From: a virus
Strand: one strand, 5' to 3'
DNA: 23,308 bases
Virus record (IMG/VR): IMGVR_UViG_3300040801_002086
Span: 1 to 23,308 of that record
Positions 2,996 to 17,084 of this stretch are shown one piece after another. The stretch's first letter is position 1. Every line of letters starts with the position of its first letter. Under the pieces are notes generated by a model. That model saw nothing but the letters and a program-made list of their open reading frames with translations. It was not told the origin of the DNA and did no database searches. The position numbers and the translations under genes were made by a program.

Positions 2996-4492
2996 TCATG
3001 CTGCGCGAATCGCCCAGCCCGTGCCATTTCCCGCCCGGCAATAAAGCCAGTCGTCGAATTCCGTGATCGCTCCGAGCGTAGACTTCACCGTGTTGTCGTT
3101 GACGTTATCCCCTGTTCGGCCGCTGTTTCTATATCCGGCGGTATATAGGCGGCCGTCCGCACCTAACGCCACCATGAAAATATTCCCGGCCTCGACGCGC
3201 CGCCATTCTCTCGAGTCGTCGATGAGCTGCGTATCCGTATACGTCCCGTTTGGCAGCGCGAGGTTTCCGAGCGAAGAGACGCCCCAGCCGAGAATTGCGC
3301 CCGTCGGCCCGATTATTGGCACCTGTCCGTATCGCGTCTTGCCGCCGAGAAACCTCACGTTGAGAGGCGCCTGCGCTGCAGCGAGCGGCGCGGTGATGCC
3401 GGAGGTTGTCCCCTGGCACGTCGCGCCGGAGTTATTCGCGCCAAACGTGAATATCTCTCCATTGATCAGGACCGCGCCCGCGGCGATCCCGATGCCCATG
3501 ATCTCTTGCGCTCCGGTAACGAAGGCCGCGGTCGGGTTTTGCGTCGCGGTCACGACATTGACGTCGACGTTTATCGCGTTGGCGTTTTGGTAGTTGCGCC
3601 CCCAACCATAGAGCTCGCCGTCCTTAATTGCGATTGCGCTCTCGTTGTTGTTGATCGCGCGAGACCATCCCGTCTCGGATCCGACCCGGGTCGGCACACG
3701 GGTGATTCCCGAGGTTGTGCCCTGGGCGGTTATATAGCTTCGGTTATCGCCCCAGGAATACAGCGAGCCGTCCGACCGGATCGCAAAGCAACAGTAATAG
3801 CCGGTGCTGCACCAGACCCAGTCGTCTATTTCTGGCGCGATCCGGGTCAGGCGCGTATGAAACCCGCTCGTCAGGTTGACCCCGGTCATGCCAGAAAGAT
3901 GCGAGCCGCAAGAGTAGAGCTGTCCGTCTCGGATCGCGAGAGTTACGGATGAGTTCGAATCCACGAAACTCCAGTCTGCGAACTCCTCCAGTAGGTTTGT
4001 TACGCGCAGCGTCGGCACCGCGGTGAAGCCCGTCACCGTGCCTGCGCCGCTTTGCGCCAGGCCATTCGAGCCCCAGGAATACAGCGAGCCTAGAATCGGC
4101 GGCTCGTCAGGCGGGAGAGTCCAAGCCCCGCTGATCACCAGCGAGGCCGAAAACATCACCGCATTTTTATATTCGCCCGTGATCTGGAGGTCCTGAATAT
4201 AGGCGCCGTCCGTCTGTATTAGATAGCCGTCCGGGAATTCGACCTCGACGTCGATCAGCTCCCCGGCGAGCTTCGGCTGGATCAGCTGGGAGACGTGCGG
4301 AAGCGAGAGCACGCCCTCGATCCCGAGCACGAGCTCGCGCGTATCTATGATGCCCAGCAAGTGCCGGAATCCGTCTTCCTCTTCGTGGCTTACGTTGATC
4401 GCTTCATTGTTGAAGCGCACCGTCTTGGCACGGGCGCCCGCGATCGCGACGCCGTCCTTCCGGATGATCAGCTGCCGCCCTGCGTAGCTCAT
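2996..4492 (-). CDS. Tail-tube-like domain fused to a seven-repeat RCC1 beta-propeller
   Basis: A 498-residue protein in two parts. Residues 1-130 are a paralogue of the tail tube protein at 10049-10456: both have G-R near the start, then K-T-x-x-x-N-N-E-x-I, a GFR motif, and near the end N-[AD]-A-V-x-F-S-A-S followed by S-G. Residues 134-498 hold seven RCC1-type repeats, each with a core like LYSWGSN, starting at about 137, 192, 244, 294, 347, 400 and 449 (spacing 49-55). The C-terminal strand (WLYCRAGNG) probably closes the ring with the first repeat. The gene directly follows the tail hub, so the tube-like domain may dock on the tail tip and the propeller may bind a host receptor; that is inferred. 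The start overlaps the hub stop (ATGA). Confidence 0.85.
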   Translation of the reverse strand: MSYAGRQLIIRKDGVAIAGARAKTVRFNNEAINVSHEEEDGFRHLLGIIDTRELVLGIEGVLSLPHVSQLIQPKLAGELIDVEVEFPDGYLIQTDGAYIQDLQITGEYKNAVMFSASLVISGAWTLPPDEPPILGSLYSWGSNGLAQSGAGTVTGFTAVPTLRVTNLLEEFADWSFVDSNSSVTLAIRDGQLYSCGSHLSGMTGVNLTSGFHTRLTRIAPEIDDWVWCSTGYYCCFAIRSDGSLYSWGDNRSYITAQGTTSGITRVPTRVGSETGWSRAINNNESAIAIKDGELYGWGRNYQNANAINVDVNVVTATQNPTAAFVTGAQEIMGIGIAAGAVLINGEIFTFGANNSGATCQGTTSGITAPLAAAQAPLNVRFLGGKTRYGQVPIIGPTGAILGWGVSSLGNLALPNGTYTDTQLIDDSREWRRVEAGNIFMVALGADGRLYTAGYRNSGRTGDNVNDNTVKSTLGAITEFDDWLYCRAGNGTGWAIRAA

Positions 4493-10905: not shown

Positions 10906-11369
10906 TTCGCCGCCTTTTTCGCGCGCTTCTCCATTTCCTTCTCGAGCTGGACCCCGAGCCGCTCACGGTAGAGCGCGGGCACCTCCGGCCGCATGGCCTC
11001 GACCGTCGGCACAATGAAAGGCTTCCCCGGGACGAACTTCCCGCTCTTGCTGTGAACGTAGCCGAACTCGACCAAGTGCGCGTGATACCCGCGCCCCGAC
11101 TTGCTGCCGCTGCGATCAGCAACGACCCTGGCCTCGACCATGCGCCGAGTGCCCCTGGACCGCTTCGCCTTGATCGACTTCTTGAGCCGCCCGGACCGCA
11201 CCGGCGCCGCGGCCTTCACCCGGCCTTGCGCCTCGCGCGCAATGTCCAGGGTCGTGCGGCGGAGTATGTTCGTCGCCTCTCGCGGCAGCACGTCTCGGAA
11301 CGTCTTCCGGAGATCCTCGAGCCCCTCGACCTCGGCGCTCGGCGCCTTGCGGCCAGTAAACCGGCGCAT
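10902..11369 (-). CDS. HK97 gp10-like head-tail joining protein
   Basis: A 155-residue basic protein. The pattern LEDLRKTFRDVLPREATNIL, then AAAPVRSGRLKKSIKAK, then YHAHLVEFGYVHSKSGKFVP and KPFIVPTVEAM is typical of the HK97 gp10 family (neck or tail completion proteins). The ATG at 11369 shares one base with the head-closure stop (TAATG); the longer upstream frame is rejected as a shadow of that gene. It ends in a Lys-rich helix. Its exact joint position is taken from the family. Confidence 0.88.
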   Translation of the reverse strand: MRRFTGRKAPSAEVEGLEDLRKTFRDVLPREATNILRRTTLDIAREAQGRVKAAAPVRSGRLKKSIKAKRSRGTRRMVEARVVADRSGSKSGRGYHAHLVEFGYVHSKSGKFVPGKPFIVPTVEAMRPEVPALYRERLGVQLEKEMEKRAKKAAK

Positions 11370-11725
11370 TAGGCCCCGTCCGTCACGCCGGAGCGCACGC
11401 GCAGGCGGTACTCGCGGCGCGCCGTGCGGTCGGTCTCGATCGACAAGATATCGTGCGGCTCTCCCTCCCATACGATGCGCATATCCGGGCGCAACCCTGG
11501 GAACCAGCGCAGTTGTATGCGGGCCGAGGCCTCCGCCAGCTTGGTGCCCGCCGCCGCCATTTCGCGCCCTGGTCCGGTCAGGACCTCCGCCGGGACGCCG
11601 GTCATAGTGACCCCGCCGAGCACCGCAGGCCGCCAGGTATGCTCGAGCGCGCCCGTCTCATCGTCTCGAACCTCGACCCGCTCCTCGACGTCGACGCGGT
11701 GGCGCAGGCGGTTGGATAGATTCAT
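11369..11725 (-). CDS. Head-closure / head-tail adaptor protein
   Basis: A 118-residue protein with features of SPP1 gp16-type head-closure proteins: LSNRLRHRVDVEERVEV at the N-terminus (compare the usual L-R-H-R-I/V start), a beta-rich middle and a C-terminal IVWEGEPHDILSIETDRTAR followed by REYRLRVR. It plugs the connector once DNA is in. In most phages of this type the gp6-like connector gene directly precedes it; here four glycan genes (11722-14187) separate the two. The ATG overlaps the stop of the last cassette gene. Confidence 0.85.
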   Translation of the reverse strand: MNLSNRLRHRVDVEERVEVRDDETGALEHTWRPAVLGGVTMTGVPAEVLTGPGREMAAAGTKLAEASARIQLRWFPGLRPDMRIVWEGEPHDILSIETDRTARREYRLRVRSGVTDGA

Positions 11726-12360
11726 CCCGGGACCTCGTTTATTTCGTCGGGTTCCGCGAGCCAGGCGAGCGCCTCTTCCGGAGTCACCCGCGGAAAACAG
11801 TTAACCAGGCTCCGCGGCGAGCCGTTGATCACTTCAATGCCGCGCAGCTGCGGCAGTGCCGAGGCGAACAGCTCCGGCAAGTGCGCCAGCGACCAGCGCG
11901 GCCGCCCTGGCGCGTATGCGTAGCCGCGCGCCGTAGCGTCGACCCCGAAAAGCGCGATCTTCTCCGGCCGCTGGTGATAGGCGAGGCCGAGCGCGCCGTA
12001 TGCGCTGTTTCCCGTGCTGATCGCGGCCGGATCCTCCGACAAGCCCAGGCGCGAGCCGCGCACCCCGTTGCCGGTCACGCGGCGCAGATATGTGACGTGC
12101 GAGAGCCGCGTCACCCGGTGCGCCGGGCTCTTCGCGCTCGGCGTCCCGTAGTCTTCCGGGACCGCCATAAAGTACCGCACGCCGGGCCGCGGGCGATTCA
12201 CCAGGCCGCGAACGTAGCGGCTCGGATCCAGGCTAAAAAACCAGTCCGCCGCGTCGCACCATTCAATCGCGCCATTTACTGCGATCACCAGCACCCCAGG
12301 CATCCGCGGGATCTGCACGCGCCGCAGGCTCGGCCCGTTGGCAACGATCGCCACCTTCAT
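11722..12360 (-). CDS. DUF115/GT42-like putative glycosyltransferase (second copy)
   Basis: A 212-residue protein. ATG 12360 overlaps the previous stop (ATGA) and gives MKVAIVANGPSLRRVQIP; a longer frame from 12612 adds an Arg/Pro-rich shadow. Shared with the first copy (13600-14187) are an N-terminal A-x-G-P-S-L nucleotide-sugar loop, a central G-N-S-x-x-G-A motif (TGNSAYGALGLAY, residues 117-129), a strand ending in GVD or GYD (IALFGVDATARG) and a C-terminal N-x-S-P/NGSPRS. These match DUF115 and GT42 sialyltransferase-like enzymes, which transfer a sugar from CMP- or similar donors. The donor and acceptor are not readable. Some phage homologues carry the vague label norphogenetic protein. 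Confidence 0.65.
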   Translation of the reverse strand: MKVAIVANGPSLRRVQIPRMPGVLVIAVNGAIEWCDAADWFFSLDPSRYVRGLVNRPRPGVRYFMAVPEDYGTPSAKSPAHRVTRLSHVTYLRRVTGNGVRGSRLGLSEDPAAISTGNSAYGALGLAYHQRPEKIALFGVDATARGYAYAPGRPRWSLAHLPELFASALPQLRGIEVINGSPRSLVNCFPRVTPEEALAWLAEPDEINEVPG

Positions 12361-12974
12361 ACGCGCCAGCCGACCTCGGCCGGGCGCGGGCGCCCGTGGA
12401 AGCAAACGACCCTCTCGTCGGCATTCCTGGTCGCCTGCACCTTGCGGCTCACGATGAGCCCGGGCGCGAGCGCCTGCCATAGCTCCGGAGGCTCGCGCAG
12501 CTGGCGCGCGATAAATCCGCCGTCCCCCCAGCATTGCCGCGTGCGGCACCGCGCCATATGCGCCTCCGGCGCGGCGGCGAACGTCTGATATATCCGGGAC
12601 CAATCTCCGCACCAGGCCATGACGCCGGAGGCCGGAAACTGCGGCTTAAAGAAATCCGCCAGCATTGTGAACCGATGCCGTCGCGCCATGAGCGGCGCGA
12701 GCGAGCCCGTGATCACGGTATCGAGGTCCAGATATAGGACCGGCCCCTCGAAGAGACCCGGCCGGAAGAGCTCTATCTTCGACCACCAACCCGGCCAGGC
12801 GTGCTCGAGCGGGATCGTCCTGCATTCGAGCGCCTGGTCGCTCAGTGCCACGAAAGGCCAGCCGGAATATCTACGGACCCCAGCTGCCAGGCGCTCGACG
12901 TATTCGGGCCCGTAGGCGCCGCCGGAGCGCAGGACGCAAACGACCGTCGGCGTTAGATCGGCAGCATGAGCCAA
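12357..12974 (-). CDS. GT-A fold glycosyltransferase
   Basis: About 205 residues from TTG 12974; an ATG at 13019 would overlap the methyltransferase gene by 67 nt, so the start is uncertain. The conserved part begins LTPTVVCVLRSGGAYGPEYV. WWSKIELFRPGLFEGPVLYL followed by DLDTV contains the D-x-D metal/nucleotide-sugar motif, with further motifs GVMAWCGDW, WGDGGFIARQL and a C-terminal FHGRPRPAEVGW. This order is known from small GT-A enzymes in capsule and phage glycan loci. It is cytoplasmic with no membrane segment. Third in the cassette, its stop overlapping the next ATG. Donor specificity is unknown. Confidence 0.8.
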   Translation of the reverse strand: MAHAADLTPTVVCVLRSGGAYGPEYVERLAAGVRRYSGWPFVALSDQALECRTIPLEHAWPGWWSKIELFRPGLFEGPVLYLDLDTVITGSLAPLMARRHRFTMLADFFKPQFPASGVMAWCGDWSRIYQTFAAAPEAHMARCRTRQCWGDGGFIARQLREPPELWQALAPGLIVSRKVQATRNADERVVCFHGRPRPAEVGWRV

Positions 12975-13603
12975 TTTCGATCGTCCAGCACGGCCGCCAG
13001 CCCGTAACCGTCGACCCATATCTCGCGCCCCTCCGCTGGTCCCAGGACCTCGACGAATAGCGCAGGCTTACAGCGGTCGATTGTTTCCTTCGCGCCCGCC
13101 AGGACGGCCGCCTCGCCGCGCTCGACGTCAATCTTTATCGCGGCGCACTGCTCGAGGCCGAGCGAGTCGATCGTCACGCCCTCGACCTCGAGATCCTGGC
13201 TTTCTTTCCCGCCGCTAGGCCGGACCAGGCTCGCGCCCGACGTCAGGAACGGCACGCGCGGATTAAACTTGATCACCGTCGGCCCGGCAGTTGCATTCAC
13301 GCATTTCTGCTCGAGCTCGACCTCCACCCCGTTAAGTGCGAAGTTTTCAACGCAGCGCCGATAGTTCGCTGGCATTGGCTCGAACGCGAGCACCCGGCAG
13401 CCCAGCCGGGCCGCAATCATTGAGAAAATCCCCGTATAGCATCCGACGTCGACGACCGTCCCGCCTTCGCGGCAGTAGTCCGCCCAACGCTGCAGGGTCG
13501 CGGGCTCGAACTCCTGTCCGCGGCGCAACAGCTTGACTATGCTGTCCTGATCCTCGATCAGGTCGAAACTCATCCCGGCCACGGACCAGCGGAATACATT
13601 CAT
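12953..13603 (-). CDS. FkbM-family SAM-dependent methyltransferase
   Basis: A 216-residue enzyme. Motif I for S-adenosylmethionine binding is TVVDVGCYTGIFS (49-61), the acidic residue after the second strand is in AFEPMPANYRRC (73-84), and the FkbM signature is AIKIDVERGEAAVLAGA (155-171). FkbM enzymes usually O-methylate sugars of polyketides, glycolipids or surface glycans. It lies between the first DUF115/GT42-like gene (ATGA overlap) and the GT-A gene, which suggests that the sugar built by this cassette carries a methyl cap. The N-terminal 45 residues are a typical lead-in helix. Family call is secure; the substrate is inferred from context. Confidence 0.9.
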   Translation of the reverse strand: MNVFRWSVAGMSFDLIEDQDSIVKLLRRGQEFEPATLQRWADYCREGGTVVDVGCYTGIFSMIAARLGCRVLAFEPMPANYRRCVENFALNGVEVELEQKCVNATAGPTVIKFNPRVPFLTSGASLVRPSGGKESQDLEVEGVTIDSLGLEQCAAIKIDVERGEAAVLAGAKETIDRCKPALFVEVLGPAEGREIWVDGYGLAAVLDDRNWLMLPI

Positions 13604-14187
13604 GCAATGACGTCCTTAAGCTCGCCGAGCGGGAAGGCCTTTAGAGCTGTCCCTGGCGATAGGTTGATCACCGGCGCGGCGACGTGCGCCGCCACCCGGG
13701 CCATGCGCCCCTGCCACGAAGGCAGAGACTTGGCGTTTCCCAGCCCGGGCGGATGATCGCCATGATGGTGCACCCCGCCGCGCGTGTGGCTGTCATACCC
13801 GAGAAGATAGATCCGGGCCGCCCCGAAGTGCGCCGCGAGCAGGATCGCCCCGCCGCCGCTGTTTCCGACCCAGCCCCGCAGGCCGCGAACCCCGATCGCC
13901 GAGCCCGGCACCCGGCCGACGCCGTCTATGCCCGAGAGGCACGTCCACGGCTCGCCCTTGAACTCCCGCAATACCTGGGCGCGGTAGTGCTTCCACCAGG
14001 CCCGGTCCTGGGCGAAAAGTGCATCCGCGGTCGGCACCGTCGTGAACGTGGTATTCGTGACGATGATCCGGCGCCCGGCGCCCGCATCCCGCCAGGCCAG
14101 GACCCGCTCGACCTGGTCCTGGCTCAGGCTCGGCCCGCTGGCCAAGCAAAAGGCCGTGCACCCGGCCCAGCGTCCCGCCAGGCTCAC
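13600..14187 (-). CDS. DUF115/GT42-like putative glycosyltransferase (first copy)
   Basis: A 195-residue protein starting at GTG 14187, overlapping the connector stop (GTGA). It shares with the copy at 11722-12360 the loop L-A-S-G-P-S-L (15-21), W-V-G-N-S-G-G-G-A (106-114), a strand with IYLLGYDSHT (126-135) and a C-terminal N-L-S-P. A His-rich turn HHHGDHPPG (140-148) follows the GYD strand, where a catalytic or metal-binding His could sit. The fold resembles DUF115/MAF and GT42 sialyltransferase-like enzymes. It is the first gene of the glycan cassette. The two copies are diverged in the middle, so they probably act on different sugars or steps. Confidence 0.65.
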   Translation of the reverse strand: MSLAGRWAGCTAFCLASGPSLSQDQVERVLAWRDAGAGRRIIVTNTTFTTVPTADALFAQDRAWWKHYRAQVLREFKGEPWTCLSGIDGVGRVPGSAIGVRGLRGWVGNSGGGAILLAAHFGAARIYLLGYDSHTRGGVHHHGDHPPGLGNAKSLPSWQGRMARVAAHVAAPVINLSPGTALKAFPLGELKDVIA

Positions 14188-14510
14188 GCGATCCCGAGCT
14201 CACGCTTCCGGATATAGAGCAGCGCCTCGACGTCGGACGGCAGCCGCCCGGCCTGCGCCTCGCGCGGGTCCCAGCCGTCATAGAGTTTTCCGACGAGCAT
14301 CGCCGTTGCGATCTGCTCGACCTCCGGCACCTGGTCGGGCTCGCTGCTGTCGGAGCCCGTGAGATCCTCCAGTGTCGTGCCGAGGTAGTCGAGCACGGCC
14401 TGGCTTGCGGCCAGGATCAAGAGCTCGAGCTTCGTATCGTCGTGCGCGTGGATCACGGAGAGCAGGAACTTCACGCGCTCGAGGTCGACAAGGCGGACTC
14501 CCTGCGTCAT
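14184..14510 (-). CDS. gp6-like head-tail connector
   Basis: A 108-residue helical protein of the HK97 gp6 type: VDLERVKFLLSVIHAHDDTK then LELLILAASQAVLDYLG in the N-terminal half, and IATAMLVGKLYDGWDPRE toward the C-terminus. It forms the ring below the portal. ATGA with the preceding gene, GTGA with the first glycan gene. The C-terminal helix VEALLYIRKRELGIA is typical of the family. Confidence 0.88.
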   Translation of the reverse strand: MTQGVRLVDLERVKFLLSVIHAHDDTKLELLILAASQAVLDYLGTTLEDLTGSDSSEPDQVPEVEQIATAMLVGKLYDGWDPREAQAGRLPSDVEALLYIRKRELGIA

Positions 14511-15478
14511 TTCGTGCCTCCGTCGCGGCCGCGCTTCACTGCGAGGCGCCAGTCGCGGTTGTATTGGCCCGGGCGCCCCTTCGGCGCGTCTTTCTGCGCG
14601 ATCCAGAACGAACCGCCCCAGGTCACGCCGTCGCCCTTGCGATAATCGCCCTCCTCCTTATGCACGCCCCTATCGACGACGTGGTCGAGCCGGACCGTCT
14701 TCTCGACCTTGCGCCCGTCCGCCTCCGCGAAGAATCGCAGCGTGCGGCCGTCGGAGAGCATTTCGACGTCGAGATCGGCGAAGCTCAGGCCGTCGGCGCC
14801 GTCCTTTGGCTTCGGCATCCGGTCAATGGCCCGCTGCAGAGACTCTTGCGCGCGCTTCTCGAAGTCTAGCGCCCAGGCCGAATAGAGCGGCTCGAGCGTC
14901 TTCCGGACCGCGGCCTCGACCTGGTCGTCTGTAATCGGGTCGGCGTCCTTCCCGTTGCGCACCGGATTGGCCTCGAGGTACTTCGCGACCGCCCCTGCGA
15001 CCTGGTCGTCTGAGATCGGCTCCGCGTCTTTCCCGTCCTTCGGGCGCGGCAGCTTGGCGACCTCCGCCTCGACCAGCTCGCCGCATAGCCTCTTGATATC
15101 CGTCCGCGTGCCCTTGAGCTCGAGCTTTGCGATCACCTTCTCCGCGACCTGGTCCGGGTCCGCGTCTTTCCCGTCCTTCGGTTGCTGGATCCGCTCCAGC
15201 TGGCGGAGGAGAACGTCCTGCGCGCGGCGCTCGAACTCGAGAAGCCAGTCAGAGTGTTTAGCCGCGATCAGCGGATAGACCTCCTCGGCAGTAACGCTGT
15301 CGCCCTTGTCGCCCTTCTCCGGCGCGGGCCGGGCCGCCAGCGCGGCCTCGAGCTCGCGAATCCGGTCGTCTTGCGCCTTGATCCTCGGCGCCAGGAGGTC
15401 GAGCGCGGCTTGAACCTGGTCCTTCACGACGCCCGCAACGGCTCTTAGCCGGGCGCGCTCATGCTCGATAGTCGGCAT
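14507..15478 (-). CDS. Collagen-like / carbohydrate-binding virion protein
   Basis: A 323-residue protein between portal and connector. Residues about 1-55 are a helical coiled coil (VKDQVQAALDLLAPRIKAQD). The middle has repeated units: short collagen-like turns (KGDKGD, PKDGKDADP, PKDGKDAEP, RNGKDADP, PKDGADG), most followed by a helix like DDQVAGAVAKYL. The C-terminus contains GDYRKGDGVTWGGSFWIAQ, like chitin/carbohydrate-binding modules of ChiC type. Such proteins can be head fibres or decoration proteins; here that is inferred from position and domains. Its start overlaps the portal end by 20 nt. It is not a standard core head gene. Confidence 0.7.
   Translation of the reverse strand: MPTIEHERARLRAVAGVVKDQVQAALDLLAPRIKAQDDRIRELEAALAARPAPEKGDKGDSVTAEEVYPLIAAKHSDWLLEFERRAQDVLLRQLERIQQPKDGKDADPDQVAEKVIAKLELKGTRTDIKRLCGELVEAEVAKLPRPKDGKDAEPISDDQVAGAVAKYLEANPVRNGKDADPITDDQVEAAVRKTLEPLYSAWALDFEKRAQESLQRAIDRMPKPKDGADGLSFADLDVEMLSDGRTLRFFAEADGRKVEKTVRLDHVVDRGVHKEEGDYRKGDGVTWGGSFWIAQKDAPKGRPGQYNRDWRLAVKRGRDGGTK
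15021..15181 (-). repeat. In-frame DNA repeats inside the collagen-like gene
   Basis: A 23-bp exact direct repeat occurs at 15021-15043 and 15159-15181, 138 nt (46 codons) apart and in frame. It encodes the KDGKDA turns. A degraded third copy lies near 14941-14960. This indicates growth of the gene by duplication of a turn-plus-helix unit. Confidence 0.7.
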
Positions 15479-16790
15479 TCTCTAGCTCCTTGATCAGCGC
15501 GGCGCGCGTCGCCTCCTCGATTGCCTCCGGCTCCGGCTCTTCGGTCGGCGCGGGCGCGGGCGGCGCAGTGTCGGGCGGATCTCGCTTTGCCAGGACGGAG
15601 AGCGGCCAGTTCTGTTGCTGCATAATCGGCTCTTCTCCGCCCTCGACTGGCTCGTGCCCCTCGAGGATCCGGACCTCATTAGGCGATTTCCAGCCGGACC
15701 GGAGCGCCTTCTCGTAAGAATCGAACCGGGCCGCGGTATCCATGCGGAGTAGTCCCTCCTGGACCTCGAGCTCCGTCCGGTATTGCTCCGGCAGCGCCAG
15801 CCCCTCGTCGAGCTGGAGCTCGATGCATTCGATTAGCTCCTGGAGCGTCCCGGAGTAATAGGCCTGGTCCATTGGCCCGATGTTGTTGTATGCGGGCAGC
15901 TGGCCGACGCCGATCTTATAGCCCGGCACGCCGAAGGCCCGACATACGTCTTCGGAGGTCCAGCGGAGCTGTTCGATCAGCTGCGCATCGGTCGCGCTCA
16001 TGGTGAACTGTTCGAACTTAAGCCCGTCACCTGTCACCAGGAGCTTGCCGATATTGTCGCCGCCGTAGTTGGCCTGGAAGTTCGTCTGTATCCGCTTGGC
16101 GGTCTCATCCTTGATAAACCCCGGCGCCGTCAGGTGGCCGGACGGGCGCGCCATGTTCCCGAAGAATTTCTCCGAGTTGCGCTGGATCTTGATGCCCTGC
16201 ATTGCGGTAAGACCGCAGGCCGCGATCGGCGAGACGCCGATTAGCGGATGCTCAGGGGCGAGATATACGTCGTGGATCACTTCGGTGGCGGGCACCGTGA
16301 TCTGCGCCTGCTGTTGGATCATCCGGTCATAGTTGAGCCGATAGAACACCTGGCCGGACTCAGAGACCAGCGGCGTCACTTTCTGCGGATCGAGCGGCCA
16401 GATACCGCGAACAATGCCGCGCGCGTCCCGCTCCTTGAGCCCGTAGAAGTTCCCAAACAGGAGTTTGGAAAGGACCCAGCTCTCGAGGAACTTAATCCGC
16501 GTCTGGACCGGATTCGGCTTTTTCAGCACCGGCGAGAAGAGCGCGCTCTCGCCCTCTTTCCAGACGCCGGAGGCCGTGCGCTGCATGAGCATAATCCGGA
16601 GCTTGCCGATATCGCTCGCAATCAGGCGGGCGCAGGCGAACACCGCACTAAACGTCAGAACCGAGTCGATCTGGATTGGCTCGTCCTGCTGCCAGGCGCC
16701 GGTGGTCGGGTCGTGGATCGTGACCCAGCGGCCGCGGTCCGGCGGCGAGAGATCCTTGCGCCGCGTGATATCGAACCCGAATAGCTTCAC
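15459..16790 (-). CDS. Portal protein (HK97 family)
   Basis: A 443-residue portal that forms the dodecameric DNA gate at one vertex. Recognised from VLTFSAVFACARLIASDIGK (about 44-63), LLFGNFYGLKERD, IWPLDPQKVTPL, VIHDVYLAPEHPLIGVSPIA and WTSEDVCRAFGVPGYKIGVG. The C-terminus from about 390 is Pro/Glu/Ala-rich and acidic. It is coupled to the small gene upstream (ATGA). Unusual feature: in HK97-type phages the portal normally precedes protease and capsid; here it comes after the capsid gene and after a terminator. Confidence 0.94.
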   Translation of the reverse strand: MKLFGFDITRRKDLSPPDRGRWVTIHDPTTGAWQQDEPIQIDSVLTFSAVFACARLIASDIGKLRIMLMQRTASGVWKEGESALFSPVLKKPNPVQTRIKFLESWVLSKLLFGNFYGLKERDARGIVRGIWPLDPQKVTPLVSESGQVFYRLNYDRMIQQQAQITVPATEVIHDVYLAPEHPLIGVSPIAACGLTAMQGIKIQRNSEKFFGNMARPSGHLTAPGFIKDETAKRIQTNFQANYGGDNIGKLLVTGDGLKFEQFTMSATDAQLIEQLRWTSEDVCRAFGVPGYKIGVGQLPAYNNIGPMDQAYYSGTLQELIECIELQLDEGLALPEQYRTELEVQEGLLRMDTAARFDSYEKALRSGWKSPNEVRILEGHEPVEGGEEPIMQQQNWPLSVLAKRDPPDTAPPAPAPTEEPEPEAIEEATRAALIKELENADYRA

Positions 16791-17038
16791 GAGCTGGCCT
16801 CGTCGTCAGATTCGTCCAGGATTTCCGGCTCAGGCGCGGGCGCGGGCGCCGCTTCCGGGACCATATCGCGCCGCTTGTATGCGCGCCGCTTGGTGGTGGC
16901 CTTTTTCTTCGGAGTGCCCTCGACTATCTCGACCTTGCCCAGGAGCACCAGCACCCGGGCCGAGGGTCCGTCGATCTCCTTCTCTTCGCCCCGTCGGCCG
17001 ACGGACGGGACATATTTCGCAATCGCTCGGACTCTCAT
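16787..17038 (-). CDS. Small basic/acidic head-region protein
   Basis: An 83-residue protein, family not recognised. The N-terminal half (MRVRAIAKYVPSVGRRGEEK, then SARVLVLLGKVEIVEG) forms a small compact unit seen in short proteins of head gene clusters. It is followed by a Lys/Arg-rich linker (KKKATTKRRAYKRRD) and an acidic, Pro/Ala-rich tail (PAPAPEPEILDESDDEASS). GGAGG lies 7 nt before the ATG, just after the terminator, so translation starts anew here. A role in head decoration or scaffolding is possible but not shown. Confidence 0.65.
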   Translation of the reverse strand: MRVRAIAKYVPSVGRRGEEKEIDGPSARVLVLLGKVEIVEGTPKKKATTKRRAYKRRDMVPEAAPAPAPEPEILDESDDEASS

Positions 17039-17052
17039 CGAAGATCCTCCAG

Positions 17053-17084
17053 AAAAAGGCCCGGCGCCCCGAAGGACGCCGGGC
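17053..17084 (-). terminator. Strong intrinsic terminator after the capsid gene
   Basis: On the minus strand an 11-bp stem GCCCGGCGTCC / GGGCGCCGGGC (one U-G wobble) closes a UUCG tetraloop, followed by C and TTTTT (17053-17057). It starts 20 nt after the capsid stop and ends 15 nt before the next ATG. It probably stops part of the transcripts, giving more capsid mRNA than downstream portal and tail mRNA. Confidence 0.85.

Follow-up and report, generated by a model that had tools for sequence, protein, structure and literature searches.

A cassette of four glycan-type genes in the head-neck operon of a virus from IMG/VR and its possible role in glycosylation of virion proteins

Introduction

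Maf proteins are cytosolic O-glycosyltransferases of flagellin, and in E. coli a Maf of Clostridium botulinum transfers 3-deoxy-D-manno-octulosonic acid (Kdo) to Ser/Thr (PMC11339370). In phage P1, pmgO, pmgP, ppp, and pmgQ are non-essential for plaques by CRISPR interference (CRISPRi), in agreement with an earlier study cited there (PMC10695390); 24 of 29 single-gene knockouts were without plaque defect, pmgO, pmgP, and pmgQ are not among the five essential genes, and their products do not appear in the virion proteome table (PMC9024508). Being dispensable and missing from the virion proteome, the pmgO/P/Q products are accessory and probably enzymes, and their dispensability for plaques fits an accessory modification. 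Here, relatives of these genes are described from IMG/VR virus record IMGVR_UViG_3300040801_002086, positions 1 to 23,308 (the window: the whole stretch of 23,308 nucleotides that was analysed), where four genes of glycan type form a cassette between head and neck genes. The whole window gave no megablast match in GenBank phages.

Results

Identity of the cassette genes

The initial annotation had placed four glycan-type genes between a gp6-like connector gene (Ad1) and a head closure gene (Hc1), and each now has independent family support (Table 1): a phrog_4603 transferase (ST4603), an FkbM-family methyltransferase, a phrog_1962 GT-A glycosyltransferase (GT1962), and a phrog_2111 transferase (ST2111). 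Profile matches across the protein place ST4603 in phrog_4603 with PmgO, and ST2111 in phrog_2111 with PmgP. SGPSL, N45, D61, W64, GxD, and HxHxxH are invariant in 50 relatives of ST4603; in GT1962, D83 and D85 are invariant. The best profile matches of GT1962 in PDB are Skp1 alpha-galactosyltransferase (2.5e-8) and glycogenin (1.8e-3), both of which use protein acceptors. The FkbM gene product is proposed, from its sequence, to be a sugar O-methyltransferase. The start of ST2111 is the ATG at 12360, the start at 12612 being part of a longer mechanical open reading frame (ORF); that of GT1962 is ambiguous (ATG 13019 or TTG 12974).

Another reading, in which the cassette would act on a nucleic acid such as phage DNA or on a small molecule such as a nucleotide, was weighed against these identities. 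Some phage glycosyltransferases act on modified DNA bases, and the cassette does contain methyltransferases; the FkbM, GT8-like, and GT42-like families, however, are modifiers of sugars or proteins, the scan of the cassette genes recognised none for base hypermodification, and the cassette sits with head-neck genes, not replication genes. On this context, such a target is regarded as very improbable.

Predicted folds of ST4603 and ST2111

AlphaFold models of ST4603 and ST2111 had a mean predicted local distance difference test score (pLDDT) of 88 and 93.6, respectively. For both models the best PDB match is Maf (5mu5; ST4603, Z 15.1 over 171 residues; ST2111, Z 13.4 over 174 residues), followed by the GT42 sialyltransferases Cst-II/Cst-I (Z 11–12; Cst-II, Z 11.7 for ST4603 and 11.4 for ST2111) and an HPPK pyrophosphokinase (see Discussion). 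Judged by these models, the two proteins are probably divergent members of one fold, Maf/GT42-like. A profile search of PDB with ST2111 gave no match.

Recurrence and position of the cassette

Relatives in known phages were found by tblastn with ST4603, with matches in P1, D3, Psp6, and PAJU2; its relatives are P1 PmgO, D3 Orf7, and PAJU2 ORF010. Among viral contigs no relative was confirmed with ST4603 as single sequence, and alignment queries were needed. The sample consisted of 350 loci and the window, dereplicated to 165, of which 156 have a core gene; the profiles used for gene calling had the window, D3, PAJU2, and P1 as seeds. With 156 dereplicated loci, the cassette is no peculiarity of the window phage.

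A recognised structural gene lies within 3 kb of the cassette in 109 of the 156 loci; among the remaining 47 are P1-like late regions, large phages, and short contigs. Full-span loci (n = 80) were defined by Hc1 together with the major capsid protein (MCP) or portal gene and the HK97 gp10-like (gp10) or tail terminator gene. ST4603 is present in 76 of the 80, a figure biased by the use of the cassette itself to find most of the loci; it is also present in 25 of 28 full-span representatives fetched by Hc1 instead, with an Hc1 profile built mostly from cassette loci. Placements of ST4603 (n = 78) are MCP/Ad1 (66), Hc1/gp10 (5), Ad1/Hc1 (3), MCP/Hc1 (2), and protease/Ad1 (2), at least one MCP/Hc1 placement having an adaptor that the survey profiles missed. 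The nesting between Ad1 and Hc1, which the initial annotation had singled out, is thus true of the window but is the rarer form, MCP/Ad1 being usual; the site is uncommon yet repeated. The comparison of relatives with and without the cassette, which had been suggested earlier, also yielded empty sites: locus L013 has MCP-Ad1-Hc1-gp10 without the set, and coliphage JLK-2012, with a head of the window type, has Ad1-Hc1-gp10 contiguous by annotation. What the window carries is one local version of a module that is widespread, and near-constant in the D3-like phages sampled. All 24 matches in bacterial genome contigs are from Proteobacteria by record title (narrow pattern search, alignment A4).

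The portal-adjacent protein (14507-15478) had been put forward as a carbohydrate-binding partner of the cassette. It matches no carbohydrate-binding module family in Pfam at E 1, and its homologue adjoins the portal gene in JLK-2012, where no cassette is annotated; its role as a lectin partner is not supported. Between Hc1 and a GT9-like gene of another locus, L159:8493-9941 encodes a Laminin_G/ConA lectin-domain protein, a better lectin candidate but not in the window.

Exchange of partner genes

Across loci the neighbours of ST4603 are GT1962, a GT9-like gene, GT2, several methyltransferase families, a sulfotransferase, a polysaccharide pyruvyl transferase, and a GT29-like gene. In 15 ORFs ST4603 is fused to a glycosyltransferase (GT9-like domain, 13; GT1962, 2). 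The GT9 label is based on the annotation of one record, together with weak profile similarity to the heptosyltransferase TibC (E 0.005). A constant ST4603 with variable sugar-tailoring partners would be expected of an initiating enzyme with exchangeable extension steps.

Examples in related cassettes are the sulfotransferase at L262:9506-10201, the polysaccharide pyruvyl transferase at L179:8610-9506, and a 2-oxoglutarate-Fe(II) oxygenase at L276:12216-12806. A gene like GT29 sialyltransferases lies beside ST4603 at L169:4228-4923 (Pfam, 22.5 bits, just below the cut-off), with relatives in L137, L155, L156, L162, and L165.

Genes of the Kdo pathway

Three relatives have Kdo-pathway genes in or near the cassette. 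The genes of L050 run in the order Ad1, ST4603, kdsA (3-deoxy-8-phosphooctulonate synthase), KpsF/KdsD-like isomerase gene, ST2111, methyltransferase gene, GT1962, and Hc1; kdsA reaches 394 bits with TIGR01362 (equivalog cut-off, 314), and the isomerase scores under full-length cut-offs. These two genes (L050:6522-7984) are part of a head-neck operon, and the KdsA matches a PHROG weakly. In the P1-like L065 and L057, kdsB (synthetase of cytidine monophosphate-activated Kdo, CMP-Kdo) follows the cassette at a distance of 2.4 and 2.6 kb downstream, respectively, after a coiled-coil protein gene, with TIGR00466 scores of 242 and 180 bits (equivalog cut-off, 155). The KdsB proteins of L065 and L057 share 37% identity, and the former has no PHROG match. 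The arrangement of L057 recurs almost unchanged in L356, and L357 is a kdsB contig without a cassette nearby. kdsB was found in two of 50 cassette contigs vs. seven of 50,697 GenBank phage records (Fisher p 3e-5), a comparison of different collections that is indicative only. A CMP-sialate-type synthetase was considered and rejected, the sole CTP_transf_3 genes among the 50 contigs being two, both kdsB.

This genomic context suggests CMP-Kdo as donor. It is a reasonable guess because of the Kdo genes of L050, L065, and L057, the kdsB counts, and the Kdo transfer by C. botulinum Maf; most relatives, being without Kdo genes, would draw on the host pool.

Link to the head module

In the nearest relative, L010 (IMGVR 3300012147_000208), neck and tail genes are 66–91% and FkbM, GT1962, and ST2111 64–73% identical to those of the window, whereas the portal is 28% identical, the capsid module is different, and ST4603 is 45% identical; its cassette is upstream of Ad1, unlike that of the window. 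In 51 loci of the order MCP-ST4603-Ad1-Hc1, distances of ST4603 correlate with those of MCP (rho 0.43) and portal (0.42), and less with those of Ad1 (0.19) and Hc1 (0.14). ST4603 thus appears to travel with the head genes, which fits a head protein as acceptor.

These data bear on a late change of the host surface, in which precursors of lipopolysaccharide (LPS) or capsule would be glycosylated or methylated before lysis, so that progeny avoid debris or superinfection is blocked. Kdo and heptose are sugars of the LPS inner core, LPS heptosyltransferase II is a distant match (E 0.067) of the GT9-like partner found in related cassettes, ST4603 records and prophages come from Gram-negative hosts, and PAJU2 encodes an O-antigen acetylase too, far from its cassette. 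Known seroconversion sets, however, depend on membrane proteins (GtrA/GtrB/Gtr, O-acetylase), and none of the identified cassette genes encodes a membrane protein of that type; neither the tight head-neck placement nor the better correlation with head genes is expected of such a role, and the closest folds or profile matches include the protein modifiers Maf, TibC, Skp1 galactosyltransferase, and glycogenin. A host-surface role is considered rather unlikely, though it is the next most likely reading after glycosylation of virion proteins.

Late operon of the window

All late genes of the window are on the minus strand, in the order large terminase, head protease, MCP, portal, portal-adjacent protein, Ad1, the four cassette genes, Hc1, HK97 gp10-like protein, tail terminator, major tail protein, and tape measure. 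Overlaps of 4 nt (GTGA or ATGA) were found at four of the five cassette junctions (Ad1/ST4603, ST4603/FkbM, GT1962/ST2111, ST2111/Hc1), and the FkbM/GT1962 junction overlaps by 22 or 67 nt. Every junction is thus GTGA/ATGA or an overlap, as had been noted, but the coupling is a trait of the whole operon and no special mark of the cassette, because neighbouring structural genes overlap likewise (portal-adjacent protein/Ad1, gp10/tail terminator). A scan for sigma-70-like promoters of an independent moron found none (1.7 in shuffles), and there is no terminator-like site at either cassette boundary. With its short overlaps and the empty promoter scan, the locus agrees with the earlier statement that the cassette is expressed with the late structural genes and has no promoter of its own. 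GC content and third-position GC content (GC3) of the cassette genes are close to those of their neighbours, and recent import is not indicated.

A strong terminator-like hairpin (17059-17084, minus strand; 11 pairs, 10 of them G-C, with a T-rich tail) lies between the capsid gene and a small gene (16787-17038), and may control how much capsid message there is relative to the messages downstream, those of the cassette included. Elsewhere in the window, the gene at 2996-4492 (minus strand) encodes a protein that matches major tail proteins (phrog_1407) over its N-terminal ~125 residues and RCC1-type repeats (phrog_4219) in its C-terminal part, a tail-tube-like domain followed by a probable beta-propeller.

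Table 1 Coordinates of the cassette genes, their flanks, and the kdsB genes of relatives. Positions are those of the window unless a locus is named; E-values are given for profile matches.
Feature	Position	Strand	Support or context
ST4603, phrog_4603 transferase, 195 aa, GTG start	13600..14187	-	phrog_4603 E 1.2e-37, residues 15-195
FkbM-family S-adenosylmethionine (SAM) methyltransferase	12953..13603	-	Pfam PF05050 4.4e-16, 59.9 bits vs. 22.7 cut-off; phrog_8156 2.8e-28
GT1962, phrog_1962 GT-A glycosyltransferase	12357..13019	-	phrog_1962 E 2.4e-49; DxD motif (LDLDTV)
ST2111, phrog_2111 transferase, 212 aa	11722..12360	-	phrog_2111 E 2.2e-37, residues 2-184
Ad1, gp6-like head-tail connector, upstream cassette flank	14184..14510	-	Pfam PF05135 (Phage_connect_1) 9.3e-7; phrog_40 2.5e-8
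Hc1, head closure protein, downstream cassette flank	11369..11725	-	Pfam PF05521 (Phage_HCP) 1.4e-17; phrog_25 7.8e-14
Portal-adjacent protein, structural neighbour outside cassette	14507..15478	-	phrog_1289 'portal protein' 7.7e-34
kdsB	L065:11647-12402 and L057:11186-11974		P1-like phages

Discussion

Proposed function of the cassette

Late, cytosolic O-glycosylation of virion proteins is, with moderate confidence, the function that we assign to the cassette. From the gene identities, the predicted folds, the coupling, the recurrence, the partner exchange, and the Kdo genes in or near three relatives, we infer a protein acceptor, a head-protein target, an order of action, and CMP-Kdo as donor. 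ST4603, a compact and soluble enzyme of predicted Maf fold, would act in the cytoplasm and put the first sugar on Ser/Thr of a structural protein on the head side, with a donor that is perhaps CMP-Kdo from the host LPS pathway; GT1962 and ST2111 would lengthen the glycan, with methylation by the FkbM enzyme. The likeliest benefit is that the particle is masked or that its surface properties change. The methylated glycan on a virion protein that had been suggested earlier is partly supported: the glycan enzymes and the methylating step are in place, and a virion protein would be the likeliest target. The more specific form, an O-glycosylation system of Gram-negative-bacteria phages in which a mini Maf-like enzyme adds host Kdo to a head protein during assembly and exchangeable tailoring gives a phage-specific glycan, is offered tentatively, as possible rather than probable.

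Several points weigh against virion protein glycosylation. The HPPK pyrophosphokinase of Methanocaldococcus (8sd5) shares the fold (Z 11.7 for ST4603, 10.6 for ST2111), and the top match in Foldseek is a pyrophosphokinase of the HPPK/MptE type. A match in sequence to Cst-II was marginal (E 2.5e-3, diverse profile A1) and did not occur with the larger profiles A7 and A9; because similarity in sequence to solved GT42 enzymes is marginal, the GT42-type assignment is based on predicted folds. Of about 50 relatives, just three have Kdo genes, the comparison for kdsB draws on different collections, and the GenBank kdsA/kdsB records were compared with the cassette solely via the match lists of ST4603, ST2111, and GT1962. 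Linkage alone could yield the correlation with MCP. The main text of the P1 virion study is silent on glycosylation (PMC9024508), and within the literature searched there is no published glycan on any phage carrying the set.

The shared fold also raises the question whether the transferase-fold proteins are assembly factors, minor virion components, or MptE/HPPK-like nucleotide kinases instead of glycan enzymes. Besides the HPPK match, the site beside the connector genes, the 'putative morphogenetic' names in P1, the 'structural protein' label of PAJU2 ORF010, and the label in Eowyn speak for such roles. PmgO, PmgP, and PmgQ are, however, missing from the virion proteome table (PMC9024508) and non-essential by CRISPRi (PMC10695390), transferase motifs are invariant in the 50 relatives, and the genes around them encode glycosyltransferases, methyltransferases, a sulfotransferase, a pyruvyl transferase, and proteins of the Kdo pathway. 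Scores with the MptE-like family PF01973 (15.9 and 11.1 bits) are below the gathering cut-off of 34.6. Homologues with non-glycan roles, which the initial annotation had named as counter-evidence, do exist at the level of fold (HPPK/MptE), but Maf is the stronger match and the neighbours are sugar enzymes. A non-glycan role is held to be improbable.

If glycosylation of virion proteins is true, many phages of Gram-negative bacteria have glycosylated particles, with a bearing on immune recognition, adsorption, and stability, and a compact enzyme set would be available for protein glycosylation in E. coli. Genes of classic phages that have stayed unexplained (P1 pmgO/P/Q, D3 orf7) would be tied to a testable function, in systems for which mutants and mass spectrometry exist.

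Comparison with known systems

Maf (5mu5) shares with both phage transferases the GT42-like catalytic domain fold, modifies a structural protein before its assembly, and has members that accept CMP-Kdo; the solved Maf, however, is a multidomain protein of 632 residues, whereas the phage proteins are single domains of 195–212 aa. P1 pmgO-pmgP-(ppp)-pmgQ (P7 hdmB-hdmC-hdmD) has homologues of ST4603, ST2111, and GT1962 in one late cluster (32, 40, and 35% identity, respectively), but with the Ppp phosphatase gene between pmgP and pmgQ, without the methyltransferase in the set, and not placed between connector and head-closure genes. D3 orf7 and PAJU2 ORF010-012 have ST4603 inside a siphophage head-neck operon, as in the window, with a GT9-like protein and a Methyltransf_23 enzyme as partners instead of GT1962, ST2111, and FkbM, and at different positions. 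TibC is a cytosolic protein O-glycosyltransferase, and the GT9-like partner of related cassettes is a weak profile relative (E 0.005) of the TibC/BAHT autotransporter heptosyltransferases, although the window itself is without a GT9-like gene. Capsid glycosylation in phages has a natural precedent in mycobacteriophages, as far as can be taken from the citation of Freeman et al. 2023 in PMC12691614, but these are phages of Actinobacteria.

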